A stretch of DNA of 64,000 nucleotides from Hypericum androsaemum (lineage: Eukaryota; Streptophyta; Magnoliopsida; Malpighiales; Hypericaceae), in contig OZ023198.1 of the NCBI GenBank assembly GCA_963995505.1, forward strand, positions 7,340,558 to 7,404,557. Reading direction: 5' to 3'. Each line of letters begins with the position of its first letter. Positions within the stretch are counted from its first letter, which is position 1. The notes beneath the pieces are model-generated. The model was not told where the DNA came from. It did not search any database and saw only the letters and a list, made by a program, of their open reading frames with translations. The position numbers and the translations under genes are program-made. Below are positions 4,194 to 61,820 of this stretch, in pieces.

Positions 4194-7100
4194 GTCCCCT
4201 CCTCTTGAAAAGGATTTGTCCTCAAATCATCACCTACATCAAACGGACTCAAGTCAGCCACATTAAACGAAGCACTTACACTATACTCACCCGGAAGGTC
4301 TAGCTTGTAGGCATTATCATTAATGCGTTCTAGCACTTGGAATGGACCATCTCCCCGTGGTAGCAACTTTGAACGTCTTTGGACAGGAAAACGCTCCTTC
4401 CTCATATGTAGCCAAACCCAATCGCCCGGCTCAAAGACAACCTTGTGCCTTCCTTTGTTTGCTTGCCTTGCATAGTGCTCCGTGCGCTTCTCGATGTTCA
4501 TTCTAGCTTTCTCATGTAACTGCTTGACAAATTCAGCTTTCTTCTTTCCATCTAAGTTAACATGCTCACTCGAAGGTAGAGGTGATAAATCCAATGGAGT
4601 CAAAGGATTAAATCCATAAACAAGCTCAAATGGTGAGAATTGAGTAGCAGAATGGACAGAACGATTATAAGCAAACTCAACATGAGGCAAACATTCTTCC
4701 CAAGTCTTAATGTTATGCTTAATGAGTGCTCTCAAAAGTGTAGACAAAGTCCTATTTACTACTTCAGTTTGACCATCAGTTTGAGGATGACAAGTAGTAG
4801 AAAACAACAACTTAGTACCTAACTTGCACCACAAGGTCTTCCAAAAGTAACTTAGGAACTTAGCATCTCTATCAGAGATAATTGTCCTAGGCATGCCATG
4901 CAACCTAACAACCTCTCTAAAGAACAAATCAGCAATGTTTGAAGCATCATAAGTTTTATGACATGGAATGAAATGTGCCATCTTAGAAAACCTATCCACT
5001 ACCACAAAAATTGAATCTCTTCCACGCTTAGTCCTAGGTAGTCGTAACACAAAATCCATAGAGATATCAATCCAAGGCTCACTAGGTATAGCTAGTGGGG
5101 TGTACAAACCATGGGGTTTTACCTTTGACTTGGCTTGCTTGCAAGTGATGCAACGACCACAAACTCTCTCAACGTCTCTCTTCATGTGTGGCCAAAAGAA
5201 ATGATCTTGTAGCATTGCCAAGGTCTTTGCAATTCCAAAATGCCCCATTAAGCCACCTCCATGTGCCTCCTGAATTAGTAATTCTCGCATCGAACAATTA
5301 GGCACACAAAGTTTGTTTTCACGAAATAGGTAACCTTCATTACGAAAGAATTTACCAAATGCATTTCTTTCAGTTGATCTAAACAACTCGCCAAAATCAA
5401 CATCATCAACATACATCTCCTTAATGTGTTCAAAGCCAAGTAGTTTAGCATCAAGAGTTGAGATCAAGGCGTACCTTCGTGATAGTGCATCAGCCACTAC
5501 ATTTTCCTTACCTTGCTTGTAACGAATGACATAAGGAAATGTCTCAATGAATTCCACCCATCGTGCATGCCTCTTGTTCAGCTTGTGTTGCCCCTTTAAG
5601 TGCTTGAGTGACTCATGATCAGTGTGAATCACGAACTCCTTGGGCCACAAATAATGCTGCCATGTCTCCAATGCTCGAACTAGTGCGTACAACTCCTTGT
5701 CATAGGTCGGGTAATTCAAGGTTGCACCACTTAGTTTCTCACTAAAGTATGCAATAGGTCTTCCTTCTTGCATAAGGACAGCTCCAATTCCTACACCAGA
5801 AGCATCACACTCTATTTCAAAAGTCTTAGAGAAATTAGGTAAAGCTAACAAGGGTGCATTAGTCAACTTCCCTTTCCGTAGTTGGAAAGCCTTCTCTTGA
5901 GCTTCTCCCCAAGTAAAGCCCACGTTCTTCTTGATGACTTCAGTTATGGGTGCGGCTATGCTACTAAAGTCCTTCACAAATCTCCTATAAAAACTAGCTA
6001 GTCCATGAAAGCTCCTAACATTAGCAACACTTGTAGGGCTTGGCCATTCACGGATAGCTCGGATCTTTTCTTCATCAACCTGTATTCCGTTAGCTCCAAC
6101 AACAAAACCCAAGAATACAAGCTTATCCGTACAAAAGGTGCACTTCTTCAAGTTAGCAAACAATTGTTCTTCTCTAAGTGCATCTAAAACAGATTTCAAA
6201 TGGTCTAGATGATCCTCCATGCTCTTGCTATAAATGAGTATATCATCAAAGTAAACAACTACAAATTTACCAATGAATGGACGTAGAACATGATTCATGA
6301 GTCGCATAAACGTGCTAGGTGCGTTGGACAAACCAAATGGCATGACCATCCACTCATACAACCCATACTTAGTTTTGAAAGCAGTCTTCCACTCATCTCC
6401 TTCTTTCATCCTAATTTGATGATAACCACTTTTGAAATCAATCTTAGAAAACATGCAAGAACCATGCAACTCATCTAACATGTCATCTAAACGAGGGATA
6501 GGGTGACGATATTTTACCGTTATGTTGTTGACTGCTCGGCAATCAACACACATTCTCCATGTTTTATCCTTCTTGGGCACAAGTAGGACTGGAACAGCAC
6601 ATGGACTCATGCTCTCTCTTACGTACCCTTTCTCCAATAGCTCGTTGACTTGCTTCTCAAGCTCCTTTGTCTCTTCAGGATTGCTTCTATATGCGGGATG
6701 GTTAGGTATGGTAGCTCCCGGGACAAAGTCTATTTGATGTTCAATCCCACGAATAGGTGGCAAACCAGGTGGTAGCTCGTCGGGAAAGACATCCTTGTAA
6801 TCCTGCAAAAGAGACACAACCGTACTAGGTACATGTGGTTCAAGCTCGTTAGTGTTTAAAAGCGCCTCTCTATACCGAAGTAAGATCATAGGCTTCTTTT
6901 CAAAGCATGCTTGCTTAATATCATTTGTTCCCACATAGTAACTCTTTTTCCAACTCTCGGTTTTTCTCTCTTTGGCCGTTTTAATTTCTGTTTTTCCGGC
7001 TTCTTTTATTTTCTCAATCTTTTCCTCTCCATTGGCCGTTTTTCTTATCTTTTTTTTGGCTTCTTCTCTCCTCTCATTCTTTTTCTTCTTGTCACGCTCT

Positions 7101-8732
7101 CTTTGCTCATCACTTTCTTTTTGCAACTGACGTTGATCTTCACAAACTTGTGATGGTGACAAGGGTGCCAAGGTGATTACTCTCTTCTTAAGTATAAGTG
7201 AATACTTGTTGGTGTAGCCATCATGATGCACTTTCCTATCAAACTGCCACGGCCTTCCTAACAATAGGTGACCAGCTTGCATTGGTACAACATCACACAA
7301 CACTTCATCCTCATAGTTGCCAATGCGGAATGCTACCAATACTTGCTTCATCACTCGTACTTCTCCACTATCATTCAGCCATTGTAGTTTGTAAGGCTTA
7401 GGGTGTTTTCCCGTGAGTAACCCTAACTTCTCCACCCTAGTAGTGCTTGCAACATTAGCACAACTTCCTCCATCTATGATGACACTACACACCTTGTCTT
7501 TGACATAGCACCTTGTGTGAAAAATATTTTCTCTTTGAGCCACATCATTTTCTTCTTTTACTTGCACATTCAATGCTCTTCTAGACACAAGAGTAAGCCT
7601 CTCAGCAGCTTGGTACTCTTCCTCGGATACGTCCTCCAAAGAAGGCATGCTTTCATGCTCCGAATCCTCTTCTTCAGTTTCAATCTCTCCACTCTCCTTA
7701 ATCACCATTGCTTGCTTGTTAGGGCATTGACTTGAGATGTGCCCTCTTCCTTGACACTTAAAGCACTTGATGTCACGGTTCCTAGCTGGAGTGACTTCCA
7801 CTTTCCTTTGAGAATTAGCTTGAGAACTCTCGGATTTATGCTCTACTTTGGCTGCTTGTGGCTTGTCAAACTTCTTTTGGTAGTTTGGCTTCCAAGTAGA
7901 ATTCGATGTAGCTTTTGTTCTCCCCTCTCCTCTCTTGAGTTGCTTCTCAATTTTCGTTGCCATATGCACCATGTCCTCCAACTCCACATAGTGTTGCAAC
8001 TCAACTTTGTCTTGAATTTCAGGATTGAGTCCATTCAAGAACCTTGCCATTGTAACTTCTCTATCTTCATCTATATCAGCTCTTATCATGGCCATCTCCA
8101 TCTGTTTGAAATACTCCTCCACACTCAAACTTCCTTGCCTCATTCCTTGTAACTTCTTATACAGCTCTCTATAGTAATGACTTGGAACAAATCTCTTCCT
8201 CATCACCACTTTCATGTCTTCCCAAGTAGCTATAGGGCGTTCTCTATTTCTCCTCCTGCTAGTCACAAGTTGATCCCACCAAGTTATAGCATAATCAGTG
8301 AATTCGGTGATGGCAAGTTTTACCTTCTTTTCTTCGGAGCTATTGTGGCAATAAAACACGAACTCAATCTTCTTTTCCCACTCTAAGTACGCCTCCGGGT
8401 CAGAACGACCAGCAAAGGAAGGTATCTTCGTCTCTCTTTGGCCTTGCCTCCCTAGGTGGACGGTTTGTTCTTGCTCTCCTAAGACTCCTTGTAGAGCCTA
8501 CGCCTTCTTCAGATTCAGAATCAGCTCCGCTCGACTCTCCAATAGGTACTCCTCTCCTACGCCTTTGGAGTTTGCCTCGCGTTTGGGGGTTGTCACGAGA
8601 ATTCTCCACGGCATCCACGCGTAGTTGCAAAGGCTCCATCTGAGCTTGCACCATCCGCTCGAGCTTCCCGGCCAAGGCATCCACTAATAACTTAAGGTCT
8701 ATGTTTTCCATAGTTTGACCTTCATGCGACAT
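3968..8732 (-). pseudogene. A2 gag-pol with a single gag frameshift
   Basis: The Gag start MSHEGQTMENIDL is at 8732. A 23-nt deletion near 8430, relative to A6, shifts the frame after residue ~101 and ends that frame at 8400. Downstream the main frame is open without a stop to 3968: Gag body, CCHC, PR (IIDGGS), RT (YFDD), RNase H (CDASG, TDHES), integrase HHCC and DD35E, and the tail [11 protein letters not shown]. The final residues read LEAEWEA and lie within the 3' LTR. Only this one lesion separates the copy from an open Gag-Pol; translation as it stands would give a 110-residue Gag stub. Confidence 0.93.
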
Positions 8733-9346
8733 GTTTGCTGCAAGAAAAATTGGTTAGTAAAAAATATGGCCTCACAAGCTCACTCCCTTACGTGTATACT
8801 CTCAATGTATGGTGCACTCAAGTTCACTCGTGTTTGCACTCAAATATTTGGCTTTTCTCTCTAAGGTACTCGCACACTCTTGCCTTTTTCCTCTCGTGAT
8901 ACTTGTATGTTCTTACTAAGGCTAGAACGGCCTTGCTTGAGCTTCACGCTTTAACAAACAGAATGTTAAAGTTCCTCTTTGGTCTTTCTTTTAGTCTTGC
9001 TCGTCCCCTTTCTTGATCAGCTGTTGCGCCTCCTTAGTTTGCTAGCTTCCCTCGGATTTGCTTCCTCTTTAGCTTGAGACTTCCAATTTAGCTTGCTTCC
9101 TCTTTAGCTTGCGGCTTCCTTTTTTCTTTTTCTTTTCTTTCCTTTTTTTTTTCTTTTCTTTTTTTTTTCTTTTCTTTTCTTTCTTTTCTTGCTTCACTCG
9201 TTTGTTTTCCTCTCTTTTCTCTCAAACAGCGAGGAGAGAAAACGAACCAACAAGAACAAAAAAATAACAAGCAACAAAACGAACCAACAAGAACAAAAAT
9301 AACAAGGATAATGAACTAAAGTAACAAGCTAAGCTCTGATACCAAC
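8733..9346 (-). other. A2 5' leader with primer-binding site and purine-rich tract
   Basis: Lies between the 5' LTR and gag. The primer-binding site is at 9333-9344 (minus strand TGGTATCAGAGC), two bases inside the LTR end. About 9115-9200 is an almost pure (GAAAA)n-type purine tract on the coding strand. The end near gag holds the TACTAAC/TTGCAG acceptor-like motif. Short reading frames here are low-complexity Lys/Glu and are not called as genes. Confidence 0.85.
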
Positions 9347-10154
9347 TGATATGAATCTTCGCGGAAAAGACTCACAACTCGGACCGTTTGTTACTTTAGA
9401 ATGGAACAGATCACAACTCACAAGAACTCACAAGAACTAAGGCACGAAATTGAACCTTAACCCGCTGCAAGAGCTTCTGAACCTTGACCTAAGGTCGTAT
9501 CATGCCACGAGCGGGGATGGATGATCCGCTTGATAAGTGAAAGATAAATTCTAGCCAAGACGACTCACCAGCCTAAGCAAGAACAAACGAGTATCAAAAC
9601 TCTCAATTAGCCAATGCTAAGCAATTTCCGAATTGTTGTGTGTACGTTTTATTGCTAGGAGTCCTCTTTATATAGGCTCCCAAAGTACCCAAATATTCCT
9701 AAACAAGCTAACTCCTTAAAAGGAATTCAAAGGCTGGCCAAAACTCTCTTTCCTATTCTAAGGAGATTCTGGCCGAACTTATGCAACTAAACAAGGAATA
9801 ATATAAGCAAATAATATCTAATAGAATAGCTACTAGTTGCACGTCCAAAACAATTAGATGCATGGCCTAAATAGGCTGATTCTTCTTGATTCTCCATGTG
9901 CGCATGCATCTAGAAGCTTTCGTGCATGTCAAGCTTCCCATTCAGCCTCCAAAACGTGCATGGGCCTCCCTTGGGTTTCTTGGACGTCCTTGGTCCTCCA
10001 CGAACTTGCTTGAGCCCAAACTTCATGCATTAGTCCATTGAAATCAGATTGCAACTTCCTAGCTCTTGCTCTTGTCATTGGCCCAATTGGAACTTGAACT
10101 TGCTTCGAGTCTACAAGCTTGATAGTTGGTGCATCCGTAGGCTTGCTCACATCA
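9347..10154 (-). repeat. A2 5' LTR
   Basis: 808 bp, the same length as its partner at 3386-4193, with TG...CA ends on the minus strand. It adjoins the TSD CGAGA at 10155-10159. It contains the same TATA-like box and the LTR copy of the Pol tail. Confidence 0.95.
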
Positions 10155-11474
10155 CGAGAATTACTAATTCAGGAGGCACATGGAGGTGGCTTAATGGGGC
10201 ATTTTGGAATTGCAAAGACCTTGGCAATGCTACAAGATCATTTCTTTTGGCCACACATGAAGAGAGACGTTGAGAGATTTTGTGGTCGTTGCATCACTTG
10301 CAAGCAAGCCAAGTCAAAGGTAAAACCCCATGGTTTGTACACCCCACTACCTATACCTAGTGAGCCCTGGATTGATATCTCTATGGATTTTGTGTTAGGC
10401 CTACCTAGGACTAAGCGTGGAAGAGAGTCAATTTTTGTGGTAGTGGATAGGTTTTCTAAGATGGCACATTTCATTCCATGTCATAAAACTGATGATGCTT
10501 CAAACATTGCTGATTTGTTCTTTAGAGAGGTTGTTAGGTTACATGGCATGCCTAGGACAATTATCTCTGATAGAGATGCTAAATTCCTAAGTTACTTTTG
10601 GAAGACCTTGTGGTGCAAGTTAAGTACTAAGTTGTTGTTTTCTATTACTTGTCATCCTCAAACTGATGGTCAAACTGAAGTAGTAAATAGGACTTTGTCT
10701 ACACTTTTGAGAGCACTCATTAAGCATAACATTAAGACTTGGGAAGATTGTTTGCCTCATGTTGAGTTTGCTTATAATCGTTCTGTCCATTCAGCTACTC
10801 AATTCTCACCATTTGAGCTTGTTTATGGAATTAATCCTTTGACTCCATTGGATTTATCACCTCTACCTTCGAGTGAGCATGTTAACTTAGATGGCAAGAA
10901 GAAAGCTGAATTTGTCAAGCAGTTACATGAGAAAGCTAGAATGAACATCGAGAAGCGCACGGAGCACTATGCAAGGCAAGCAAACAAAGGAAGGCACAAG
11001 GTTGTCTTTGAGCCGGGCGATTGGGTTTGGCTACATATGAGGAAGGAGCGTTTTCCTGTCCAAAGACGTTCAAAGTTGCTACCACGGGGAGATGGTCCAT
11101 TCCAAGTGCTAGAACGCATTAATGATAATGCCTACAAGCTAGACCTTCCGGGTGAGTATAGTGTAAGTGCTTCGTTTAATGTGGCTGACTTGAGTCCGTT
11201 TGATGTAGGTGATGATTTGAGGACAAATCCTTTTCAAGAGGAGGGGAATGATGTGAGCAAGCCTAAGGACGCACCTACTATCAAGCTTGTAGACTCGAAG
11301 CAAGTTCAAGTTCCGATTGGGCCAATGACAAGAGCACGAGCTATGAAGTTGCAATCTGACTTCAATGGATTAATGGAAGAAGTTTGGGCTCAATCAAGTG
11401 CGTGGAGGACCAAGGACGTCCAAGAAGCCCAAGGGAGGCCCATGCACGTTTTGGAAGCTGAATGGGAGGCTTGA
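10155..11474 (+). pseudogene. A1 gag-pol, 3' part (integrase and CRM-like tail)
   Basis: Continues A1 after the A2 insertion, opening with the repeated target bases CGAGA. The frame is open from the integrase zinc-binding domain ([19 protein letters not shown]) through the DDE core (MDF, SDRD, TDGQTE) and the GPY/F-type region to [11 protein letters not shown]. It stops TGA at 11472-11474 inside the LTR. The AUG-initiated frame starting within the A2 LTR at 10119 is an artefact of the junction. No chromodomain is seen after the GPY/F region. Confidence 0.92.
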
Positions 11475-12052
11475 CATGCACGTATGCTTCTAGATGCATG
11501 CGCACATGGGGATTCAAGAAGAATCAGCCTATTTAGTCCGTGCATCTATTTGTTTTGGACGTGCACCTAGTAGTTATTCTATTAGATATTATTTGCTTAT
11601 ATTATTCCTTATTTAGTTGAATAAGTTCAGCCAGAATCTCTTTAGAATAGGAAAGAATTTTGGCCAGCCTTAAACTCCTTATTTGGAGTTAGTTTCGTTT
11701 AGGAAAGTTGTAAGACATGAGGAGCCTATATAAAGAGGCGTCCCCCTTCAATAAAGAACACAACAATTCGGAAATTACTTAGCATTGGCTAATTGAGAGT
11801 TTTGATACTCGTTTGTTCTTGCTTAGGCTGGTGAGTCGTCTTGGCTAGAATTTATCTTTCACTTATCAAGCGGATCATCCATCCCCGCTCGTGGCGTGAT
11901 ACGACCTTAGGTCAAGGTTCAGAAGCTCTTGCAGCGGGTTAAGGTTCAATTTCGTGCCTTAGTTCTTGTGAGTTCTTGTGAGTTGTGGTCTGTTCCATTC
12001 TAAAGTAACAAACGGTCCGAGTTGTGAGTCTTTTCCGCGAAGATTCATATCA
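11249..12052 (+). repeat. LTR shared by A1 (as 3' LTR) and A3 (as 5' LTR)
   Basis: 804 bp, TGATGTGA...TCATATCA. It is preceded by a polypurine tract and Pol (A1) and followed directly by a primer-binding site (12055-12066) and leader (A3). No TSD or host sequence lies on either side, so one LTR serves two internal regions. TATATAAAG at 11727-11735 and ACAACAATTC from 11760 mark the likely promoter and the start of R. Confidence 0.95.
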
Positions 12053-15700: not shown

Positions 15701-17487
15701 TTGCATACTTTAGTGAGAAACTAAGTGGTGCAACCTTGAATTACCCGACCTATGACAAGGAGTTGTACGCACTAGTTCGAGCATTGGAGACATGGCAGCA
15801 TTACTTGTGGCCAAAGGAGTTTGTGATTCACACTGATCATGAGTCACTTAAGCACTTAAAGGGGCAACACAAGCTGAACAAGAGGCATGCACGATGGGTG
15901 GAATTCATTGAGACATTTCCTTATGTCATTCGCTACAAGCAAGGTAAGGAAAATGTAGTGGCTGATGCACTATCAGAAAGGTACGCCTTGATCTCAACTC
16001 TTGATGCTAAACTACTTGGCTTTGAACACATTAAGGAGATGTATGTTGATGATGTTGATTTTGGCGAGTTGTTTAGATCAACTGAAAGAAGTGCATTTGG
16101 CAAGTTCTTTCGTAATGAAGGTTACCTATTTCGTGAAAACAAACTTTGTGTGCCTAATTGTTCGATGCGAGAATTACTAATTCAGGAGGCACATGGAGGT
16201 GGCTTAATGGGGCATTTTGGAATTGCTAAGACCTTGGCAATGCTACAAGATCATTTCTTTTGGCCACACATGAAGAGAGACGTTGAGAGAGTTTGTGGTC
16301 GTTGCATCACTTGCAAGCAAGCCAAGTCAAAGGTAAAACCCCATGGTTTGTACACCCCACTACCTATACCTAGTGAGCCTTGGATTGATATCTCTATGGA
16401 TTTTGTGTTAGGACTACCTAGGACTAAGCGTGGAAGAGATTCAATTTTTGTGGTAGTGGATAGGTTTTCTAAGATGGCACATTTCATTCTATGTCATAAG
16501 ACTGATGATGCTTCAAACATTGCTGATTTGTTCTTTAGAGAGGTTGTTAGGTTGCATGGCATGCCTAGGACAATTATCTCTGATAGAGATGCTAAGTTCC
16601 TAAGTTACTTTTGGAAGACCTTGTGGTGCAAGTTAGGTACTAAGTTGTTGTTTTCTACTACTTGTCATCCTCAAACTGATGGTCAAACTGAAGTAGTGAA
16701 TAGGACTTTGTCTACACTTTTGAGAGCACTCATTAAGCATAACATTAAGACTTGGGAAGAATGTTTGCCTCATGTTGAGTTTGCTTATAATCGTTCTGTC
16801 CATTCTGCTACTCAATTCTCACCATTTGAGCTTGTTTATGGATTTAATCCTTTGACTCCATTGGATTTATCACCTCTACCTTCGAGTGAGCATGTTAACT
16901 TAGATGGCAAGAAGAAAGCTGAATTTGTCAAGCAGTTACATGAGAAAGCAAGAATGAACATCGAGAAGCGCACGGAGCACTATGCGAGGCAAGCAAACAA
17001 AGGAAGGCACAAGGTTGTCTTTGAGCCGGGAGATTGGGTTTGGCTACATATGAGGAAGGAGCGTTTTCCTGTCCAAAGACGTTCAAAGTTGCTACCACGG
17101 GGAGATGGTCCATTCCAAGTGATAGAACGCATCAATGATAATGCCTACAAGCTAGACCTTCCGGGTGAGTATAGTGTAAGTGCTTCGTTTAACGTGGCTG
17201 ACTTGAGTCCGTTTGATGTAGGTGATGATTTGAGGACAAATCCTTTTCAAGAGGAGGGGACTGATGTGAGCAAGCCTAAGGACGCACCTACTATCAAGAT
17301 TGTAGACTCGAAGCACGTTCAAGTTCCAATTGGGCCAATGACAAGAGCACGAGCTAGGAAGTTGCAATCTGACTTCAATGGATTAATGCAAGACGTTTGG
17401 GCCCAAGCAAGTGCGTGGAGGACCAAGGACGTCCAAGAAGCCCAAGGAAGACCCATGCACGTTTTGGAAGCTAAATGGGAAGCTTGA
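12702..17487 (+). pseudogene. A3 gag-pol, one 2-nt deletion, otherwise complete
   Basis: Start ATG of MSYEGQTMGNIDL. A 2-base deletion near 12948 (CTCTACGGAG for CTCTACAAGGAG) stops the first frame at 12951-12953; the rest is open to 17487. Residue numbers in the intended 1595-residue polyprotein: N-terminal helix ~12-45; Gag domain ~100-270; CCHC knuckle 331-344; protease Asp in IIDGGS at 428; RT YFDD at 835; RNase H CDASG around 983; integrase His1165/His1172 and Cys1199/Cys1202; DDE triad Asp1234, Asp1295, Glu1331 (D-60-D-35-E); tail [11 protein letters not shown] from 1545. The tail lies inside the 3' LTR. The length fits a complete Gag-Pol in a single frame without an internal recoding site. 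Confidence 0.94.
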
Positions 17488-18065
17488 CATGCACGTAAGC
17501 TTCTAGATGCATGCGCACATGGAGAATCAAGAAGAATCAGCCTATTTAGTCCGTGCATCTACTTGTTTTGGACGTGCAGCTAGTAGTTATTCTATTAGAT
17601 ATTATTTGCTTATATTATTCCTTATTTAGTTGAATAAGTTCGGCCAGAATCTTTTTAGAATAGGAAAGAGAGTTTTGACCAGCCTTAAACTCCTTATTTG
17701 GAGTTAGTTTCGTTTAGGAAAGTTGTAAGACTTATAGAGCCTATATAAAGAGGCGTCCCCCTTCAATAAAGACAACAATTTGGAGAATTACTTAGCATTG
17801 GCTAATTGAGAGTTTTGATACTCGTTTGTTCTTGCTTAGGTTGGTGAGTCGTCTTGGCTAGAATTTATCTTTCACTTATCAAGCGGATCATCCATCCCCG
17901 CTCGTGGCGTGATACGACCTTAGGTCAAGGTTCAGAAGCTCTTGCAGCGGGTTAAGGTTCAATTTCGTGCCTTAGTTCGTGTGAGTTCTTGTGAGTTGTG
18001 ATCTGTTCCATTCTAAAGTAACAAACGGTCCGAGTTGTGAATCTTTTCCGCGGAGATTCATATCA
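17262..18065 (+). repeat. LTR shared by A3 (3') and the A4 stub (5')
   Basis: 804 bp, TG...CA, preceded by the polypurine tract GAGGAGGGGA (17251-17260). It is followed by another primer-binding site at 18068-18079 rather than host DNA. Its U5 end (TTGTGAATC...GGAGATTCATATCA) is the closest match in the window to the ends of SS1. Confidence 0.95.
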
Positions 18066-23200: not shown

Positions 23201-24718
23201 GTGGGAAAAGAGTTTGTTTTGTACACTGATCACAAGGCGCTGAAGTTTGTGAATGACCAGTCTAAGTTCGTGAATCATATGCATGCTAGATGGTGCACAT
23301 ATCTACAGAAATTTCCCTTCAAGATAGCTCATAAAAGTGGGAGTCATAATGTGGTGGCTGATGCTCTTAGTAGAAGAACGAGCTTGCTTGTGGAGCTGAG
23401 GGGAAGTGTTACTGCTTTTGAGTGCATTAAGGAGCTTTATGAAGATGATGATGATTTCGGTGAAGTTTGGAAGAAATGCAAGAGTGGTAAGGCTGTGGCA
23501 GATTACTTCTTGCATGATGGATACCTAATGAAGGGAAATCAGCTTTGTATTCCCAACACATCACTACGGCAACAACTTATGTGGGAAATGCATGGTGGTG
23601 GACTTTCTGCCCACCTTGGAAGAGACAAGACGTTGGCCTTTCTAACTGAAAGGTTCTATTGGCCTAAGCTAGGCAAGGAGGTTGAGAAGATGGTGAGACA
23701 TTGTAGAGTGTGCCAAGAGACCAAGGGGACAGTGCACAACACGGGACTCTACACGCCACTACCCGTTCCTAAGGCCATTTGGGAGGACCTGAGCATGGAC
23801 TTTGTGCTTGGCTTACCTCGCACCCCTCGTGGTGTGGATTCTATCTTTGTGGTTGTTGACAGGTTGTCCAAAATGGCGCACTTCATTCCTTGCCGAAAGA
23901 CCAATGATGCAAGTGGTGTAGCAAGACATTTCTTCAAGGAAGTGGTCAGATTGCATGGAGTTCCACGCACCATCACTTCTGATCGTGATGTGAAGTTCTT
24001 GGCAAGCTTTTGGAAGACGTTGTGGAAGATGTTCGATGCCACCTTGCAATTCAGTACCACGGCACATCCACAAACTGATGGCCAGACCGAAGCCACCAAT
24101 AGAACACTTGGGAACTTGCTGAGGAGCCTTTGCCACGAGAAGAAACGACAATGGGACTTAGCTTTGCCTATAGCTGAGTTCGCATATAATGGGGCAGTGC
24201 ATCGCATGACAGGAAAGTCACCTTTCTCCTTAGTTTATACTAAGGTTCCTAACCATTTAGTGGATGTATCTTTAGTCCCAAGACCAAGCAAGAGCAATCC
24301 TTCAGCCGTTGCATTCGCTGAGCAAGCACAGGCTGTGATTGAAGAGGTGCGCAAGAAGTTAGAGGAAGCGTATGCCAAGGAGAAGGCGAGAGTAGATGAG
24401 CATCGTCGTGTCCAAATCTTTCAGCCTGGTGAGCAAGTCATGGTTCACTTCAGGAAGGAGAGATTACCAAGCAACATCGCAGGTGGCAAGTTGCAAGCTA
24501 GGAAGTACAGACCATTCAAGGTGTTAAGGCGTATCAATGACAATGCATATGTCATTGATCTGCCCGAAGAGTATGGAGTATCCAAAAGCTTCAACGTTGC
24601 TGACCTCACGCCTTATTATGATGCCTTTCCCATGCCATCCAGACTTGCAACTCGAGGACAAGTTCCACTCCAAGGTGGGGAGGATGACGTAGGAACGTCC
24701 AGCTTGCCACATTCCTGA
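20300..24718 (+). pseudogene. C1 gag-pol with two in-frame stop codons
   Basis: One continuous frame of 1473 codons, broken by TAG at 20975-20977 (in Gag, where B2 has DQMIAR) and TGA at 23171-23173 (RNase H, FxALRTW, where B2 has FRALKTW; an Arg CGA-to-TGA change). Landmarks: Gag start [16 protein letters not shown]-rich stretch ~60-85; CCHC CFKCNELGHKSSDC at ~320; protease IIDGGS Asp at ~415; RT YFDD at ~766; RNase H; integrase HHCC ([14 protein letters not shown]) and DDE core (MDF, SDRD, TDGQTE); C-terminus [10 protein letters not shown]. The frame has no stop before the polypurine tract and runs 34 bases into the 3' LTR. No chromodomain is seen. Confidence 0.94.
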
Positions 24719-27583: not shown

Positions 27584-28201
27584 TGATATGAATCTGATCA
27601 GCAAGAAGATTAATTTCGTTTTTGAGGTTTTTGAGTCTGTTTAGGAAGTTAATTATATGTTATTTTCGTTTTATAAAAGTTCTAGTCTATTTAGGAAGTC
27701 AATAATTTGAGAATTTCGTTTCTTTAAGAGTTCAAGTCAGTTTAGGAATGTGATTATGTGATAATCACGTTTTTAGCAATCATAGGAGTACTAGACTTGT
27801 TTTCCTTTTTAGTTTCCCTTTTTAAGTCATATTTATCTAGTTAGAAGTTATATTTAATTAGGAATCTCTTTGTAACAATCTGCCTATATATAAAGGCATT
27901 ATCAATGAGAATAAGGAGAATAATTTGAGTACAAAAAACGTGGGCTTTGCTCTCTTGGTTCTTCGGAACTGTTCGAACACAGCGGAGGGATTCCGTTCGT
28001 TCACCTTCGACTTATCAAGCGGATCGACATCACCGTTTGTGGCGTCTTCATCAATTCAAGGTTCTTGTTTCCCTACAGCAGCGGGTCGAGGTTGTTCATA
28101 CCGAGGTTCTTGCAAAGGTGCAAACAACGGGTCGAGATTTCCATCAATCTGAACGTAGATAGATCCGGCTTTCGCGTGGATCCGTAACGAGATTCACATC
28201 A
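27584..28201 (+). repeat. N1 LTR copy 1
   Basis: 618 bp, TGATATGAATCTGATCAGC...GATTCACATCA. It has a TATATATAAAGG box near 27890. Its 5' part does not encode the GPITRARA tail found in the N3 LTR. Confidence 0.95.
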
Positions 28202-29362
28202 GTTGGTATCAGAGCCAGCTTCTACTTCAGATCATCTATCTTTAAATTTCGTTTTTGTTTTCATTAGTTTTCAATTATTGTTCTTATTTTATTCTGAGTT
28301 GGAGAAAGAAAAAAATATATAAAAAGAGGAAAAAAATTCCGAAAAAAAAGAAAGATAGAGAAGAAGGCAGCCAAGAAAAGAAGAAGAAAGAAGGCTGAAA
28401 AAAAAATCAAATAAAGAAAAGAAAAGTTGAAAGTAGAAAAAAAGAGAATTTGCAAGAATGTCTTATAACTACTCAAGAAGATCCTTTGAAGGTGTTGCAC
28501 CATTGGTTGGTGATCCACACACGTTTATGGACGCCCTTCTTAGTGGGATGAGGCATATAATGAGAACGGAGGTCAAGAAGCTCAGCGAAAAGGTGGACCG
28601 GATAGTGTGCAAACAAGAGAGGATACATGATGTTCCTAATGTCTGTAGCGGAAGACAAATTCAACAAAGGAGGATGAGGGTCAAAGATGAGAAGAATTCA
28701 GGAGCTAATTTTGTTGGAGAAGTCAATGCAAAGAGGGAGAACACCATTAACACTAAGCACGACATTGAGGGGAAGGTATGTAGTTCTGACGATTTGGAGG
28801 TTACACTTGAAGTGATTGTTGAAGAAGAGGTTTTGACATGGGAGGAATTTGGTGAATATTCTATTGACTTGTTCGATGGAGAATGTTTTGATGACCATGC
28901 CATGTAACTTCTTTACTTGAGGGATTTGTTCAATGAATCAGAATTGGTGGATGTTGTTCATATGAAGAACTGCTTAACTGCTATTGATGGTGAACAAGAA
29001 GAACTTGTTGTTTTAGTTGACAAGGAAGATGTCCAACCCATATCTTACATGTCTCCTGATTTACATGTTGAACATATTGACTTCTTAGGTGTGGACAAGT
29101 TTAATTATGTTGGAGGTTCATCGTTGATCAACTTCTAGAATAGTTTGAAGTTCAAAGAAAGGCTTGTGCAAATAAGTAAGATTTTGGTTTTTAATTTGGA
29201 GAGGACTTTAGATTGCTTATGTTCAAAGTATCTATTTTGTTGGGATGGAAGATATCAAGTTCAACCCAGACGTTCCAAGACTTGTTCAAGCATGATCGTG
29301 AATTGGAAAATGCATGACGTATGCAAGGATTTGAGGACAAATCCATTTCAAGAGGAGGGGAA
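28202..29362 (+). pseudogene. N1 internal region 1 with a broken N-family ORF
   Basis: The primer-binding site is at 28204-28215, then a leader with a purine-rich stretch (28290-28450), then ATG at 28458 (MSYNYSRRSFEGVAPLVGD). The frame matches the complete 371-residue N3 protein but has a stop at 28905-28907 (TCA to TAA after DDHAM) and another at 29136-29138 (LINF*). The last ~60 codons before the LTR are only loosely similar to N3. It ends in [14 protein letters not shown], the same pre-LTR peptide as family A, plus polypurine tract 29350-29362. Confidence 0.9.
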
Positions 29363-29980
29363 TGATATGAATCTGATCAGCAAGAAGATTAATTTCGTTT
29401 TTGAGGTTTTTGAGTCTGTTTAGGAAGTTAATTATATGTTATTTTCGTTTTATAAAAGTTCTAGTCTATTTAGGAAGTCAATAATTTGAGAATTTCGTTT
29501 CTTTAAGAGTTCAAGTCAGTTTAGGAATGTGATTATGTGATAATCACGTTTTTAGCAATCATAGGAGTACTAGACTTGTTTTCCTTTTTAGTTTCCCTTT
29601 TTAAGTCATATTTATCTAGTTAGAAGTTATATTTAATTAGGAATCTCTTTGTAACAATCTGCCTATATATAAAGGCATTATCAATGAGAATAAGGAGAAT
29701 AATTTGAGTACAAAAAACGTGGGCTTTGATCTCTTGGTTCTTCGGAACTGTTCGAACACAGCGGAGGGATTCCGTTCGTTCACCTTCGACTTATCAAGCG
29801 GATCGACATCACCGTTTGTGGCGTCTTCATCAATTCAAGGTTCTTGTTTCCCTACAGCAGCGGGTCGAGGTTGTTCATACCGAGGTTCTTGCAAAGGTGC
29901 AAACAACGGGTCGAGATTTCCATCAATCTGAACGTAGATAGATCCGGCTTTCGCGTGGATCCGTAATGAGATTCACATCA
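29363..29980 (+). repeat. N1 LTR copy 2 (middle, shared)
   Basis: 618 bp; it serves as 3' LTR for internal 1 and 5' LTR for internal 2. It differs from copy 1 at two sites seen by eye (GATCTCTTGG for GCTCTCTTGG; GTAATGAG for GTAACGAG). Confidence 0.95.
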
Positions 29981-31141
29981 GTTGGTATCAGAGCCAGGTT
30001 CTACTTCAGATCATCTATATTTAAATTTTGTTTTTGTTTTCATTAGTTTTCAATTATTGTTCTTATTTTATTCTGAGTTGGAGAAAGAAAAAAATATATA
30101 AAAAGAGGAAAAAAATTCCGAAAAAAAAGAAAGATAGAGAAGAAGGCAGCCAAGAAAAGAAGAAGAAAGAAGGCTGAAAAAAAAATCAAATAAAGAAAAG
30201 AAAAGTTGAAAGTAGAAAAAAAGAGAATTTGCAAGAATGTCTTATAACTACTCAAGAAGATCCTTTGAAGGTGTTGCACCATTGGTTGGTGATCCACACA
30301 CGTTTATGGATGCCCTTCTTAGTGGGATGAGGCATATAATGAGAACGGAGGTCAAGAAGCTCAGCGAAAAGGTGGACCGGATAGTGTGCAAACAAGAGAG
30401 GATACATGATGTTCCTAATGTCTGTAGCGGAAGACAAATTCAACAAAGGAGGATGAGGGTCAAAGATGAGAAGAATTCAGGAGCTAATTTTGTTGGAGAA
30501 GTCAATGCAAAGAGGGAGAACACCATTAACACTAAGCACGACATTGAGGGGAAGGTATGTAGTTCTGACGATTTGGAGGTTACACTTGAAGTGATTGTTG
30601 AAGAAGAGGTTTTGACATGGGAGTAATTTGGTGAATATTCTATTGACTTGTTCGATGGAGAATGTTTTGATGACCATGCCATGTAACTTCTTTACTTGAG
30701 GGATTTGTTCAATGAATCAGAATTGGTGGATGTTGTTCATATGAAGAACTGCTTAACTGCTATTGATGGTGAACAAGAAGAACTTGTTGTTTTAGTTGAC
30801 AAGGAAGATGTCCAACCCATATCTTACATGTCTCCTGATTTACATGTTGAACATATTGACTTCTTAGGTGTGGACAAGTTTAATTATGTTGGAGGTTCAT
30901 CGTTGATCAACTTCTAGAATAGTTTGAAGTTCAAAGAAAGGCTTGTGCAAATAAGTAAGATTTTGGTTTTTAATTTGGAGAGGACTTTAGATTGCTTATG
31001 TTCAAAGTATCTATTTTGTTGGGATGGAAGATATCAAGTTCAACCCAGACGTTCCAAGACTTGTTCAAGCATGATCGTGAATTGGAAAATGCATGACGTA
31101 TGCAAGGATTTGAGGACAAATCCATTTCAAGAGGAGGGGAA
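29981..31141 (+). pseudogene. N1 internal region 2 with a broken N-family ORF
   Basis: The primer-binding site is at 29983-29994; ORF ATG at 30237. It shares both stop codons of internal 1, which shows a common defective source, and adds a third at 30624-30626 (GAG to TAG). Polypurine tract 31129-31141. About five substitutions separate it from internal 1. Confidence 0.92.
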
Positions 31142-31759
31142 TGATATGAATCTGATCAGCAAGAAGATTAATTTCGTTTTTGAGGTTTTTGAGTCTGTTT
31201 AGGAAGTTAATTATATGTTATTTTCGTTTTATAAAAGTTCTAGTCTATTTAGGAAGTCAATAATTTGAGAATTTCGTTTCTTTAAGAGTTCAAGTCAGTT
31301 TAGGAATGTGATTATGTGATAATCACGTTTTTAGCAATCATAGGAGTACTAGACTTGTTTTCCTTTTTAGTTTCCCTTTTTAAGTCATATTTATCTAGTT
31401 AGAAGTTATATTTAATTAGGAATCTATTTGTAACAATCTGCCTATATATAAAGGCATTATCAATGAGAATAAGGAGAATAATTTGAGTACAAAAAACGTG
31501 GGCTTTGCTCTCTTGGTTCTTCGGAACTGTTCGAACACAGCGGAGGGATTCCGTTCGTTCACCTTCGACTTATCAAGCGGATCGACATCACCGTTTGTGG
31601 CGTCTTCATCAATTCAAGGTTCTTGTTTCCCTACAGCAGCGGGTCGAGGTTGTTCATACCGAGGTTCTTGCAAAGGTGCAAACAACGGGTCGAGATTTCC
31701 ATCAATCTGAACGTAGATAGATCCGGCTTTCGCGTGGATCCGTAACGAGATTCACATCA
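31142..31759 (+). repeat. N1 LTR copy 3
   Basis: 618 bp, one visible difference from copy 1 (AATCTATTTG for AATCTCTTTG). Followed by TSD CCAAG at 31760-31764. Confidence 0.95.
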
Positions 31760-31764
31760 CCAAG

Positions 31765-34454
31765 GAAGCCAAAATATGGGAAATCTAAGTTGAACAGCGC
31801 CATGCAAGTCAAGTCGTTGGTCACGTCCTCAAAGTTATTCCTTGCGTCAATGAAGGAGTATTGGGGTTGCGATGTTCTTGTGATTAAAGAAGTGACTCCA
31901 AAGCAAGAAGGGGAGATGGAGGAGCTACCTGATCGAGTGAGACAATTACTTAGATTGTTCCCCGAAGTTGCACCCTAGGAATCACCAAAGGGTTTGCCAC
32001 CTTTGAGGGACATTCAGCATCAAATTGATCTGATCCCGGGTGCCACTTTGCCAAATTTGCCCCACTACCGAATGAGTCCTCAAGAGAACCAAGTCCTACG
32101 TGACCAGATTCAAGAGCTCCTAAGCAAGGGTCACATCCAGGAGAGCTTAAGTCCGTGTGGGGTGCCCGCTCTTTTGGTTCCTAAAAAGGACGGATCGTGG
32201 AGGATGTGCGTGGATAGTAGAGCAATCAACAAGATCACCGTGGGGTACAGATTTCCTATCCCTCGTTTAAATGACATGCTTGATAACCTGAGTGGATCCG
32301 TGGTGTTTTCTAAGATAGATTTGAAGAGCGGATACCATCAGATTAGAATTCGACCTGGTGACGAATGGAAGACTGCTTTTAAAACTCGTGATGGCTTGTA
32401 CGAGTGGCTTGTTATGCCATTCGGCTTGACTAACGCACCAAGCACCTTCATGAGACTGATGCACCAAGTCTTGAAGCGCTTCCTTGATCGGTTCGTGGTA
32501 GTATATTTTGATGATATCTTGGTTTATAGCAAGTCCGAAGAAGAACATCAAGAACACTTGATGCAAGTTTTTGAAGCTTTAAGAGGTAATAGCCTTATTG
32601 TGAACCTGAAGAAGTGCATCTTTTGGAAAGAAAATCTTGTGTTTCTTGGTTTTGTTGTTGGGAAAGACGGAGTGCAGGTTGATCAGGCCAAGATTGAAGC
32701 CATTCAGATGTGGCCTATTCCCCTTAATGTGAGACAAGTACGGAGTTTCCTCGGATTAGCCACGTTCTATCGAAGGTTCATCCGCAACTTTAGCTCAATT
32801 ACCGCACCGTTGACTTCCTTGTTGAAGAAGCAAACTAAATTTGAATGGGGAGAAGCGGCCCATAAGGCTTTCCAAGAGCTTAAGGAGAAATTAAGCTCAG
32901 CCCCGGTACTTGCACTTCCTAATTTCTCTAAGTTATTTCAGGTTGATGTAGATGCTTGTGGTGTGGGAATTGGAGCTGTGTTGTCTCAAGAGAAGCGTCC
33001 GATCGCTTTCTTTAGTGAGAAGCTAAGTGAGCATAGGCAGACCTGGTCCACTTATGAACAAGAGTTTTATGCCATGTTTAGAGCTCTTAAGACGTGGGAG
33101 CACAATCTAATTGGGAAAGAATTTGTGTTGTATACTGATCATAAAGCTCTCAAGTTTTTGAATGATCAATCCAAGCTGAGCAACCATATGCATGCAAGGT
33201 GGATCACATACTTGCAAAAGTTCCCATTTAAGATTGCTCATAAGAGTGGGAATCAGAATATTGTGGCTGATGCATTGAGCAGAAGAGAGAGTCTTCTTGT
33301 TGAGCTTAAAGGTTCGATCACTGCCTTTGATTGCTTGAAAGAACTCTATGATGGAGACGAAGATTTTGGAGTGATTTGGGACCAATGCAAAAATGGAAGG
33401 GCCGTGGCAGATTATTTTGTGCATGATGGTTTCCTTATGCGAGGGAATCAATTGTGCATTCCAAAGACTTTCCTCCGAGAACATTTGATGTGGGAGATGC
33501 ACGGAGGTGGTCTATCGGCTCATTTGGGAAGGGATAAGACCATGGCAGCCTTGGTTGCTCGTTTTTATTGGCCAAAGATGGCAAGAGATGTGGCTCGCAT
33601 GGTCAAGCATTGTAGGGTCTGTCAAGAGACTAAAGGCACGGTGCATAACACGGGCCTCTATACACCGTTGCCTATTCCAAAGGCAATTTGGGAAGATCTC
33701 AGTATGGATTTCATACTTGGTTTACCCCGCACCCCTCGTGGTGTGGATTCTATTTTTGTGATTGTGGACAGGTTATCCAAGATGGCACACTTCGTTCCTT
33801 GCAAGAAGATTAATAATGATCAGCATGGAATTGCCAAGCATTTCTTTAAGGAGGTGGTGAGATTGCATGGAGTGCCTAAAACCATCACGTCTGATCGGGA
33901 TGTCAAGTTCCTAGCCAGCTTTTGGAAGACTCTTTGGAAGATGTTTGATGCAACCCTTCAATTTAGCACCACGGCTCATCCTCAAACCGACGGGCAGACC
34001 GAGGTCACCAATAGAACCCTTGGTAACATGCTACGAAGCTTATGTCATGAGAAAAAGAGACAATGGGACTTGGCCTTGCCCATTGCTGAGTTTGCTTACA
34101 ACGGAGCGGTTCATCGTGTTACATGCAAAACACCTTTCTCTTTGGTGTATACGAAGGAGCCTAACCACTTTGTTGATGTTTCTTTAGTCCCTAAGCTTCC
34201 TAAAGCCAATCCAAGTGCGGTTGACTTCGCGGAGCAAGCCCAAGGTGTCATTGATGGCGTACGCAAAAGGTTGGACGAGGCTTATAGCAAGGAGAAGACA
34301 AGGCTAGACGCACATAGGCGAGAACAGATTTTCCAACCAGGTGAGCAAGTTATGGTTCACTTTAGGAAGGAAAGGATGCCAAGTAACATGGGTGGCAAGT
34401 TGCAAGCTAGGAAGTTTGGACCATTCAAGGTGCTCAGGCGCATAAGTGACAATG
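31765..34454 (+). pseudogene. B2 pol (RT, RNase H, integrase), one stop, then interrupted by SS1
   Basis: Continues the B2 frame after N1. A TAG at 31976-31978 stands where related copies have Glu (VAPEE), upstream of RT. The frame is then open: RT with [10 protein letters not shown] and YFDD (near 32509), RNase H (VDACGVG, YTDHKAL), integrase zinc-binding ([14 protein letters not shown]), DDE core (MDF, SDRD, TDGQTE) and [18 protein letters not shown]1 follows CAATG at 34450-34454. An extra residue in the [10 protein letters not shown] loop separates it from C1 and D1. This stop is the only pre-insertion lesion seen in the B2 coding region. Confidence 0.93.
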
Positions 34455-34775
34455 TGATATGAATCTCCGCGGAAAAGATTCACAACTCGGACCGTTTGTT
34501 ACTTTAGAATGGAACAGATCACAACTCACAAGAACTCACACGAACTAAGGCACGAAATTGAACCTTAACCCGCTGCAAGAGCTTCTGAACCTTGACCTAA
34601 GGTCGTATCACGCCACGAGAGGGGATGGATGATCCGCTTGATAAGTGAAAGATAAATTCTAGCCAAGACGACTCACCAGCCTAAGCAAGAACAAACGAGT
34701 ATCAAAACTCTCAATTAGCCAATGCTAAGTAATTCTCCGAATTGTTGTGAATCTTTTCCGCGGAGATTCATATCA
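34455..34775. mobile_element. SS1: 321 bp palindromic-ended insertion made of A-family R-U5
   Basis: Flanked by TSD CAATG (34450-34454, 34776-34780). Bases 34455-34748 (294 nt) are the reverse complement of an A-family LTR from its 3' terminus back to ACAACAATTC, the predicted transcription start, i.e. R-U5. Bases 34749-34775 (27 nt) then repeat the first 27 nt in inverted form, so both ends read TGATATGAATCTCC inward, with a perfect 32 bp inverted repeat. It has no U3, internal region or ORF. The structure matches minus-strand strong-stop cDNA whose 3' GTTGT annealed to its own ACAAC (34482-34486) and was extended, then integrated. Confidence 0.9.
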
Positions 34776-34780
34776 CAATG

Positions 34781-35417: not shown

Positions 35418-35468
35418 AAGACGCGACATTAATCAGAGAATCACTCAAATGGAGGCGGCGATTCAGGC
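35418..35468 (+). pseudogene. B1 gag remnant after B2
   Basis: Resumes B1 Gag with AAGAC and encodes RDINQRITQMEAAIQA, the homologue of the B2 Gag N-terminus (PDMNQRFTQMEAAIQA). It breaks at 35468 into CT-rich satellite; the remaining ~5 kb of B1 are missing. Confidence 0.9.
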
Positions 35469-35851
35469 CTTTTCCATGCATTTTTTTGCCTTATCATGCC
35501 TTTTCTTGCCTTATCTTTCCCCTTCTTTCAATTTCTCACCTTTTCTTGCCTTGTCTTTCCTTTTCCTTGCCCTTTCTTTCCGTTTCTTGCCTTTTCATGT
35601 ATTTTCTTGCATTATCTGTCCTTTTCTTGCCTTTTCATGCATTTTCCATGCCTTTTCTTGCCTTCTCCTTACTTTTCTTGCTTTATCTTCACTTTTCTTG
35701 CCATTTCATTCATTTTCCTTGCCTTTTCTTGCCTTTTATTGCCTTCTCCTTGCCTTTTCTTACCTTACCTTTTCTTGCTATTTCTTGCCTAATCTTGCTT
35801 TTGCCATGACTTTTCTTTCCTCTTCTTACCTTATTTTTCCTCTTCTTGCAT
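35469..35851. repeat. CT-rich minisatellite, ~10 bp period (left block)
   Basis: Degenerate array of CCTTTTCTTG-like units, matching the right-hand block around 63600-63995 nearly unit for unit (including ATTTCTCACC and TAATCTTGCTTTTGCC landmarks). The purine/pyrimidine strand bias is extreme. The overlapping open frames of about 100-150 codons arise because the unit contains no stop triplet. Confidence 0.93.
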
Positions 35852-41000: not shown

Positions 41001-42403
41001 ATCAATCTAAGCTGAGTAATCCCATGTATGCACGTTGGTGTACATATTTGCAAAAATTCCCTTTCAAGATTTCACATAAGAGTGGAGCTCAGAACGTGGT
41101 AGCCGATGCATTGAGTAGGAGGATGGCCTTACTTACTGAGTTGCGTGGAGTTATAACTTCTTTTGATTGCCTACGCAAATTGTATGATGGTGATGAAGAC
41201 CTTGGTGAAATCTGGCTTAAATGCAAGAATGGAAAGGGTGTGGATGATTATTTCTTGCAGGATGGATTTTTGATGAAGGGAAACCAGTTGTGTATCCCAA
41301 AGACCTCCTTGCGAGATCAACTCATGTGGGAGATGCATGGAGGTGGCCTCTCGGCACATTTTGGACGTGACAAGACTCTTGCTGCCTTGCAAGAAAGATT
41401 TTATTGGCCACGGATGGGTAGAGAAGTGGCAAAGTTCGTCAAGCATTGCCGTGTGTGTCAAGAAACCAAGGGCACGGTCAATAACACAGGGCTGTACACT
41501 CCGTTGCCAGTCCCGAATGCAATATGGGAGGATTTGAGCATGGACTTTGTTTTGCGCTTACCCCGCACTCCAAGAGGAGCAGATTCTTTTTTTGTCATTG
41601 TGGACAGGTTGTCAAAGATGGCACACTTCGTGCCTTGCAAGAAAACCAATGATGCATCCGCGGTGGCAAGATACTTCTTTAAGGAGGTGGTGCGCTTGCA
41701 TGGAGTGCCGAAAACCATTGTCTCAGATCGTGACACCAAGTTCCTTGCTAGTTTTTGGAGGACCTTGTGGAGGATGTTCGATGCAATCCTCCAATTCAGC
41801 ACAACCGCGCACCCTCAGACCGATGGTCAGACCGAAGCTACAAACCGCACACTTGGCAACCTCTTGCGGAGTTTATGTCATGAACGGCAAAGGCAGTAGG
41901 ATCTTGCACTTCCTATTGCTGAGTTCGCTTACAATGGGGCTGTCCATAGATCTACTGGCCAGTCTCCATTCTCTTTGGTTTACACGAAGGTGCCTAATCA
42001 TTTGGTTGATGTGTCCGTAGTGCCAAGGCCTCTTCGTGCCAACCCCGCTGCTGTGACCTATGCGGAACATGTCCAAAGTGTGCTTGATGCGGTCAAGAAG
42101 AGGCTGGAAGCAACGTACTCCAAGGAGAAGGCGCGAGTGGATGAGCATAGGCGTGCACAATTGTTCTTGCCGGGAGACAAGGTTATGGTGCATTTTCGCA
42201 AGGAACGCGTGCCCGCGCACTTAGGAGGCAAGTTGCAAGCCCGGAAGTTTGGCCCTTACAAGGTGTTGAGGCGAGTCAATGACAATGCCTATGTGATTGA
42301 TCTACCGGAAGACTTGGGAGTGTCGAAGACGTTCAACGATGCAGATTTAACTCCGTACCATGATCCGCTTCCTATGCCGTCCAGGTTGGCTGCTCGGACC
42401 TAG
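38001..42403 (+). pseudogene. D1 gag-pol with one frameshift and one stop
   Basis: Gag start [17 protein letters not shown] 1-nt deletion near 38536 (GATCGCCAA for GATCGACCAA in D2) moves the frame; the second frame is open from there to TAG at 41897-41899 (TGG to TAG after RQRQ in integrase) and onward to the natural stop at 42401-42403. Domains: RG-rich patch ~72-100; Gag; [18 protein letters not shown]; protease with IIDGGN (Ser to Asn against the family); RT YFDD; RNase H with TDDKAL (D2 has TDHRAL); integrase HHCC and DDE; C-terminus TFNDADLTPY (NVADL elsewhere). Expected full length is 1467 residues. The altered motifs suggest relaxed selection. Confidence 0.93.
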
Positions 42404-42425
42404 CATGCTCTTAAGGAGGGGAAGA

Positions 42426-42877
42426 TGACGTAGGACGTCCTAGTTTCTCATCAATCCTCATCAAAGCTATCTGAACTAGTGATTAATTACTTGTGTTTAA
42501 TTTGCGAATGTAATAAGGCAAGCGAAAGTCATTATTAGGCGGTTAAAGTTGATGGAACGGCTGGCTGAAAGGTGAGAAGGTGCGTGGTTAATATTGCCTT
42601 AATGCCGCCTGAAATCACGCCCCTATTTGTACTCGCTTGGAAGGAAATAAACGGACAGACGAAGAGAGGATTTGAATCCAACAAAACTAACCGTGCTCTC
42701 CTATTTTGCATGGTTTGCAAATGTATTGAAAGATTGGCCCTCTTATTGGCTGTTTCCGTCGGAAAACACACCTTTGCTTGGATTCGGAAGGATCAAAGCC
42801 AAAGGATTAAACTGTTCGTTGCACGATTGGTCGTTCCATCCCACTCGTTTATCACTTCCTTTCGTTGTGCTACGCCA
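42426..42877 (+). repeat. D1 3' LTR
   Basis: 452 bp, preceded by polypurine tract AAGGAGGGGAAGA (42413-42425) and followed by TSD CATGC (42878-42882). Confidence 0.94.
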
Positions 42878-61200: not shown

Positions 61201-61820
61201 TGGTTGTACTTGATACCTTCCATTCCAACAGAACAAGTACTTCGAATTAGTAGGCCAAAGCCCTACTAATCCGTTTAAGCCTTTCTTTGAACTTCAAACT
61301 ATTCCAGATGTTGATCAATGGTGAACCTCCAATATAATCAAACTTGTTCACTCCCAAGAAATCAATATGCTCAATATATTCAACGTGAAAATCTGGAAAC
61401 ATGTAAGATATGGGTTGATCCTCTTCCTTATTAACAGCAACAATAAGTTCTTCATGTTCACCATCAATAGGAATTGTGCACTTCTTCATGTGAACAATAT
61501 CCACCACAGATGATTCGTCAAATAAATCTCTTAGGTAAAGTAGTGACATGGTATGGTCATCAAAATAATCTCCATCAAATAAATCAATGGAATATTCACC
61601 AAACTCCTCCCATGTCAAAACCTCTTCAAAAACTTCATCTGAAGGCATACCAATTTCAGAACAACATACCTTTTCCTCAATGTTGCACTTAGATTGAATG
61701 ATCTTCTCTTGTTGTACTTCACTAACTTCTCTTGTATGCAAGTCAATTTTCCTTGCCAAAGACATAAGTTTCTCCCAGCTGTCTTCATCATCCCATGCTG
61801 TAACTCTAAGAGTGCTATTT
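61201..61820 (-). pseudogene. N2 ORF middle part, diverged
   Basis: Minus-strand frame 61765-61247, homologous to N3 residues from about 90 to 265 (VLTWEEFGEYSIDLFDG, LLYLRDLFDESSVVD, HIDFLGVNKFDYIGG, LINIWNSLKFKERLKRISRA). It stops at 61247 because of a deletion of roughly 26-30 nt. Differences from N3 are conservative and often synonymous. The 5' part runs into satellite near 61820. Confidence 0.86.

Follow-up and report, generated by a model that had tools for sequence, protein, structure and literature searches.

In a 64,000-nucleotide stretch of Hypericum androsaemum DNA (contig OZ023198.1, positions 7,340,558 to 7,404,557; hereafter the window), a gypsy pol reading frame on the plus strand (31994-34462; with the Pfam domains RVT_1, RNase H, integrase zinc binding and SH3_Tf2-1) is broken by a short insertion, here called SS1. 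It measures 321 bp, lies at 34455-34775 and is flanked by the 5-bp sequence CAATG on both sides (34450-34454 and 34776-34780), exactly as an earlier annotation of this DNA (the original prediction) had claimed. Two related gypsy copies (24413-24694 and 42146-42436) run uninterrupted across the site and have a single CAATG, so that the site of SS1 was formerly empty. A scan of the window for units of 80-3000 bp with inverted ends found a 5-bp duplication around SS1 alone; there were also 67 matches with 4-bp repeats and 12 with 6-bp repeats, and those listed were palindromic words within large inverted repeats.

The termini of SS1 form a perfect 32-nt inverted repeat, and the claim that this repeat stems from the U5 terminus of the long terminal repeat (LTR) of one particular family, the A family, was borne out. 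The left arm (34455-34486) is the U5 terminus in antisense. With its R-U5 sense on the minus strand, SS1 reads in R-U5 orientation as an inverted copy of the U5 terminus, followed by R, U5 and the 3' end of the LTR. It aligns solely to LTR bases 511-804, plus the inverted terminus (bases 773-804), and its body holds neither U3 nor internal sequence. The U5 terminus is thus found at both sides while LTR bases 1-510 are absent.

The A family belongs to the Ty3/gypsy group. A two-LTR element on the minus strand (3386-10154) displays the ends of the family and is flanked by TCTCG at both sides (by eye), which makes a 5-bp duplication a signature of the family. Its reading frame (3968-8359) encodes gag, reverse transcriptase, RNase H and integrase domains in the order found in Ty3/gypsy, although the match to the integrase core (30.0 bits) is slightly below the Pfam cut-off of 32.6. 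The closest A-family LTR in the window (17262-18065, plus strand) is 804 bp long, runs from TGATGTGAGC to TTCATATCA and is followed by GTTGGTATCAGAGC, which resembles a primer-binding site (PBS). In four A-family LTRs of the window (at 12052, 18065, 9347 and 53001) the sequence TGGTATCAGAGC, which we take to be the binding site of initiator-Met tRNA, comes two bases after ...CATATCA, the sequence with which SS1 ends. The TG...CA ends and the 5-bp duplication of SS1 fit the insertion pattern of the A-family integrase. We also observed that the LTRs at 11249-12052 and 17262-18065 are each preceded by a polypurine tract and followed by a PBS; these appear to be head-to-tail elements with common LTRs (from unequal recombination or as template-switch complexes).

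The SS1 body (34455-34748) matches the R-U5 part of this closest LTR (17772-18065) at 98.98% over 294 nt, with three mismatches and no gaps. The original prediction had the two as exactly equal, which holds for the length (294 nt in both) but not for the letters. Still closer copies were found in the source genome (385 Mb, 29 contigs), where 40 of 1725 candidates were scored and the seven best-scoring other loci (L002-L008) were fetched: six of them (L002-L007) share one identical 294-nt body that is one base from SS1, and the body of L008 is two bases away. The insertion, the duplication, the inverted repeat and the R-U5 body are thereby confirmed.

The point at which the body stops is informative. 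In the six A-family LTRs of the window, the similarity to SS1 ends at ACAAC or at most 8 bases past it (the alignments begin at SS1 base 28, 27 or 20). From the first T of TATATAAA, the TATA box, to ACAAC we counted 30 nt in the LTR at 17262 (by eye) and 28, 32, 30 and 32 nt in L002, L003, L005 and L007, respectively, the four of the seven fetched loci in which the spacing was measured; the other three are in the opposite orientation. Plant RNAs are expected to start some 30 nt past the TATA box. The earlier claim that the stop lies about 33 nt after it therefore stands as to the nearness to the expected RNA start, while the figure itself comes to 28-32 nt. We infer an A-family RNA 5' end at (C)ACAACAATTC, within 1-2 nt, which would adjoin the stop of the SS1 body.

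The junction between the body and the inverted terminus points in the same direction. The last bases of the body on the plus strand, GTTGT (34744-34748), are the putative 3' end of a minus-strand strong-stop DNA and would equal the RNA 5' end, given the spacing to the TATA box. They can pair with ACAAC (34482-34486, plus strand, by eye), which lies next to the 27 nt that are repeated at 34749-34775 (plus strand, ending in ...CATATCA), so that the predicted pairing and the predicted copying of 27 nt both agree with what is found. The overlap amounts to 5 nt, or to 6 nt where the donor reads CACAAC, and TCGGA (34487-34491) can add five more pairs with TCCGA (34736-34740) across a 3-nt bulge (by eye). 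Overlaps of 5 and 6 nt were also seen in L013 (read from donor copies) and L034, respectively, two palindromes described below, and the chance of an overlap of at least 5 nt is 0.0046 per junction for random breakpoints and equal base frequencies. When the 294-nt strand was folded with DNA parameters, the best partner of its 3' end was positions 28-32, with a probability of 0.55 at 25 C and 0.21 at 37 C, and the donor bodies gave a nearly equal prediction. The SS1 body has two ACAAC sites, at 28 and 67, and the best-predicted site is the one actually used.

In the normal course of reverse transcription, the minus strand is extended from the tRNA primer to the 5' end of the RNA and is then transferred to the R at the 3' end. 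In SS1, minus-strand synthesis would have been primed by a tRNA and have run the 294 nt from the PBS to the RNA 5' end, after which the DNA 3' end GTTGT would have missed the transfer to the 3' R and have paired instead with ACAAC at nt 28-32 of the same strand, counted from the 5' end. Extension by reverse transcriptase over 27 nt to the U5 terminus would then have created the second U5 end, and it probably went on into the tRNA, leaving a plus-sense PBS at the 3' end from which a second tRNA could start synthesis of the complementary strand. The resulting duplex, with an authentic U5 terminus at both sides, would finally have been inserted by integrase with a 5-bp duplication. We put the probability that SS1 is minus-strand strong-stop DNA that primed itself in cis and was integrated with two U5 ends at roughly 60%. 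A strong-stop origin as such, by folding in cis or by annealing in trans, is well supported and in our view highly probable, in agreement with the original prediction, and rests on the limits of the R-U5 body, the two U5 termini, the duplication and three related insertions (L035, L039 and L043); that the folding took place in cis is likely.

No second full-length copy of SS1 was found: the full SS1 query matched only SS1 itself among the 40 candidates scored out of 1725, and an exact-end pattern of 280-340 bp run over the whole genome gave no other A-family unit. Relatives were sought with the pattern TGATATGAAT...ATTCATATCA throughout the genome, with lengths of 101-519 bp divided into seven bins, a search that takes exact 10-nt ends only and has thin coverage at the bin edges. 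It gave nine units in total, whereas a reversed control pattern gave 0 matches in every bin; a scan of viral_contigs with a U5-end pattern also gave 0 matches. One unit (L041) was dropped as a chance match, its ends having just the searched 10 nt in common and no longer inverted repeat. The other eight are LTR-end palindromes, four of the U5 type, all from the A family (SS1, L034, L037 and L040), and four of the U3 type, from other families (L009, L013, L042 and L045). Seven of the eight, SS1 included, mark one end of an insertion that a 5-bp duplication flanks: CAATG in SS1, ATGAG in L035 (with palindrome L034), ATCAG in L039 (with L037), CTTTG in L043 (with L040), AAGGT in L013, GTTTC in L042 and CTTTT in the insertion with L009 (by eye). 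The eighth, the U3-U3 palindrome L045, has no target duplication and is kept in the tally. The proposed search for similar insertions of SS1's own size was thus negative for the A family at 280-340 bp, but it led to longer insertions with a U5-U5 fold-back and 5-bp duplications.

These longer insertions, L035, L039 and L043, have the U5 terminus at both outer ends together with the U5-U5 fold-back, and in L039 and L043 the strong-stop pieces stop at the R start or within a few bases of it. L039 (1122 bp) consists of a left strong-stop unit, a 383-nt internal piece with the PBS, 157 nt of U5 and a right R-U5; both inner limits lie within a few bases of the R start, and its two strong-stop units face each other and are 99.3% alike over 292 nt. 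L043 (2892 bp) starts with a U5-U5 fold-back (body 132 nt), followed by the PBS, about 2.4 kb of internal region and an R-U5 alone, which starts at LTR base 513 (511 in SS1) and is joined by AACAA. The R start thereby recurs as an end point, within a few bases, at the left and right of L039 and at the right of L043. In both insertions the 3' end of the strong-stop DNA may have gone to a wrong place on the RNA and so have become joined to internal sequence.

L035 (4636 bp) has a U5-U5 fold-back with a body of 149 nt that falls short of the R start, an overlap of 6 nt and one mismatch between the arms. The fold-back strand continues into TTTGGTATCA of the PBS and exits by a 3-nt overlap, TCA (by eye), into internal sequence in inverted orientation; beyond this lie a small hairpin and the part of an LTR between about base 176 and the U5 end. 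The run past the U5 terminus into the PBS would be accounted for if the attached tRNA had been copied; a minus-strand DNA template bearing the PBS would give the same. This hairpin (CTTCCAAATTAGTC...), the second fold of L035, lies at about 5670-5730, where the inverted internal sequence and the right LTR join. We regard SS1 as the simplest U5-type representative of a class of insertions that recurs in this genome.

The U3-type palindromes come from other families. L013 (positions 1501-1850 of the fetched locus) has a body of 275 nt and a 5-nt overlap, GAAGT, and it stops inside U3 and not at a natural end of the cDNA; its arms share the same variants at two sites that are variable among 14 other aligned copies, and its full query matched only L013 itself among the 40 candidates scored out of 696. 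L042 (1501-1674) has arms of just 16 nt, and its similarity to the U3 of family C copies and to part of L050 is 75-83%, which makes its family assignment tentative. L045 (1501-1647) is a family C palindrome of 147 bp with a left flank that resembles the U5 of another family (by eye). The L009 palindrome (1501-1813, with 17 nt between arms of 148 nt) belongs to an insertion of 1451 bp (L011/L012). This insertion starts with an inverted U5 terminus of family E (compare L050), which ATCAGTT links to the PBS (junction by eye); it continues with a family B internal region and has the U3-U3 palindrome at its right end beside the polypurine tract. The U3-U3 insertions such as L013 could have arisen by the same route from plus-strand DNA begun at the polypurine tract, and it is possible that those of L013 and L042 are the plus-strand counterpart of SS1.

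Two further repeats of the window were noticed. From 27584 to 31441 and on, we observed three head-to-tail units of 1779 bp, each with a family B LTR and a short internal region, which are 100% alike in the 300-nt block compared and may stem from a short element that recently multiplied in tandem. A satellite of 10-bp units close to TTTTCTTGCC occupies 61818-64000 and 35467-35849, and the L039 and L009 insertions lie inside arrays of this satellite elsewhere in the genome.

Several observations weigh against self-priming in cis as the origin of SS1. Of 200 shuffled strands, 26 fold back somewhere with comparable strength, and a probability of at least 0.55 is reached by 9 of the 60 3' ends tried on the SS1 strand (its own and 59 shorter ones), so that folding back in itself is not special; the minimum-energy structure of SS1 at 37 C has the 3' GTTGT unpaired, the closest of the six LTR bodies in the window (17772) does not favour the ACAAC site at 28-32, and the folds used in L034 and L013 were predicted weakly or not at all. 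Special folding was on these grounds rejected as a proof. Read by eye, the overlap comes to just 0-2 nt in L039, and that of the L040/L043 fold-back to 0-1 nt (5 nt if one mismatch is allowed). A hairpin, moreover, offers one duplex end only, so that a further, putative step of second-strand synthesis is needed. The right part of L039 is possibly a copy of the left, in which case the recurrences of the R start are not all independent.

The alternative that survives best shares the strong-stop origin. The 3' end of one strong-stop DNA could have paired with another strong-stop molecule in the same particle, close to the latter's 5' end, and have been extended to the U5 terminus of that molecule. 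The two facing, nearly identical strong-stop units of L039 speak for such an event, as does the L009 insertion, in which the inverted U5 terminus of one family is followed by another family's PBS and internal region; both structures suggest that strong-stop DNA can work across molecules. For SS1 itself we consider annealing in trans the lesser possibility, at perhaps one chance in a few, since the partner in cis is the best-predicted one and the arms are identical, although over 32 nt only, which makes them a weak test between the two.

One integrase complex might also have received a U5 end from each of two cDNAs, whose inner parts were trimmed and joined by microhomology end joining of the host, either while integration took place or afterwards. 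Such joining typically leaves overlaps of a few nt and would cover the U5-U5 and the U3-U3 insertions alike, and L013 and L045 stop inside U3 rather than at a natural cDNA end, so that end joining is a possible origin for L013. It leaves the stop of SS1 at the R start, and those of L039 and L043 near it, unexplained, and it fits poorly with the shared variants in the arms of L013 and with the short spacer between the long arms of the L009 palindrome; we hold it to be improbable for SS1. Plant LTRs often lose parts by deletion, and a solo LTR could in principle have been remodelled later by replication or repair, with U3 deleted and an inverted U5 copy put in place. We rejected this very improbable route because in SS1, and likewise in L035, L039 and L043, the inverted copy reaches precisely to the U5 terminus, with the duplication directly adjoining it. 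No longer, U3-containing parent that would explain SS1 by deletion was found, the outcome that the original prediction required; L035 does hold U3, but it has other junctions and a target duplication of its own. A miniature inverted-repeat transposable element (MITE) or other DNA transposon with an end resembling an LTR would be short, with inverted repeats and a 5-bp duplication, but it is hardly credible for a unit with one full-length copy in the searches above and a body that is entirely the R-U5 of a coding Ty3/gypsy family, and it was rejected on copy number.

We lean slightly towards the wider view that strong-stop DNA is a regular source of insertions in this genome. After a failed first strand transfer it would serve as primer and as template, using itself in SS1, internal genomic RNA in L039 and L043, or the cDNA of another family in L009; reverse transcriptase would run off the 5' end of the strong-stop DNA and so make the second U5 terminus. 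Two U5 ends would be accepted by integrase and U3 would be dispensable for integration, with a mirror route for U3-U3 insertions (L013 and L042). The SS1 class suggests that two-U5-ended molecules can be substrates of a Ty3/gypsy integrase, and it would offer LTR elements a means of generating short inverted-repeat insertions that look like MITEs, with no transposase involved. Failed strand transfer has mostly been studied in vitro; a genomic fossil record of strong-stop products would reveal RNA 5' ends, priming sites and read-through into the tRNA primer from ordinary assemblies.

Among the matches listed in a search of the open-access literature there was no report of integrated two-U5 strong-stop insertions; the 'U5-U5' of PMC12789967 refers to a pairing of RNA. 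SS1 resembles MITEs and other transposons with terminal inverted repeats in being a short insertion with inverted termini and a target duplication, but it differs from them in that no repeat family was found and its sequence is that of an LTR R-U5. With solo or truncated LTRs it shares an LTR-derived fragment and a target duplication; however, a solo LTR of the A family starts with U3 (TGATGTGAGC) whereas SS1 starts with an inverted U5 terminus. Template-switch complexes of LTR retrotransposons were described in Triticeae, rice and maize (Sabot and Schulman 2007, PMC1950507; cited in PMC12786077), where aberrant strand transfer was argued from a single 5-bp duplication that flanks an abnormal element, as it is for SS1. 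Those complexes are head-to-tail and have three LTRs, whereas SS1 holds no complete LTR, lacks U3 and has two U5 ends. The closest parallel in mechanism is found in human immunodeficiency virus type 1 (HIV-1), for which PMC4668388 (with Guo et al. 1997 among its references) describes self-priming of minus-strand strong-stop DNA that is linked to the TAR (trans-activation response) element and reduced by nucleocapsid protein. In HIV-1, as proposed for SS1, the 3' end of the folded-back strong-stop DNA undergoes extension rather than transfer; there it is described as an aberrant product of strand-transfer reactions, whereas SS1 is a genomic Ty3/gypsy insertion with a target duplication and with the structure to be expected of such a product.

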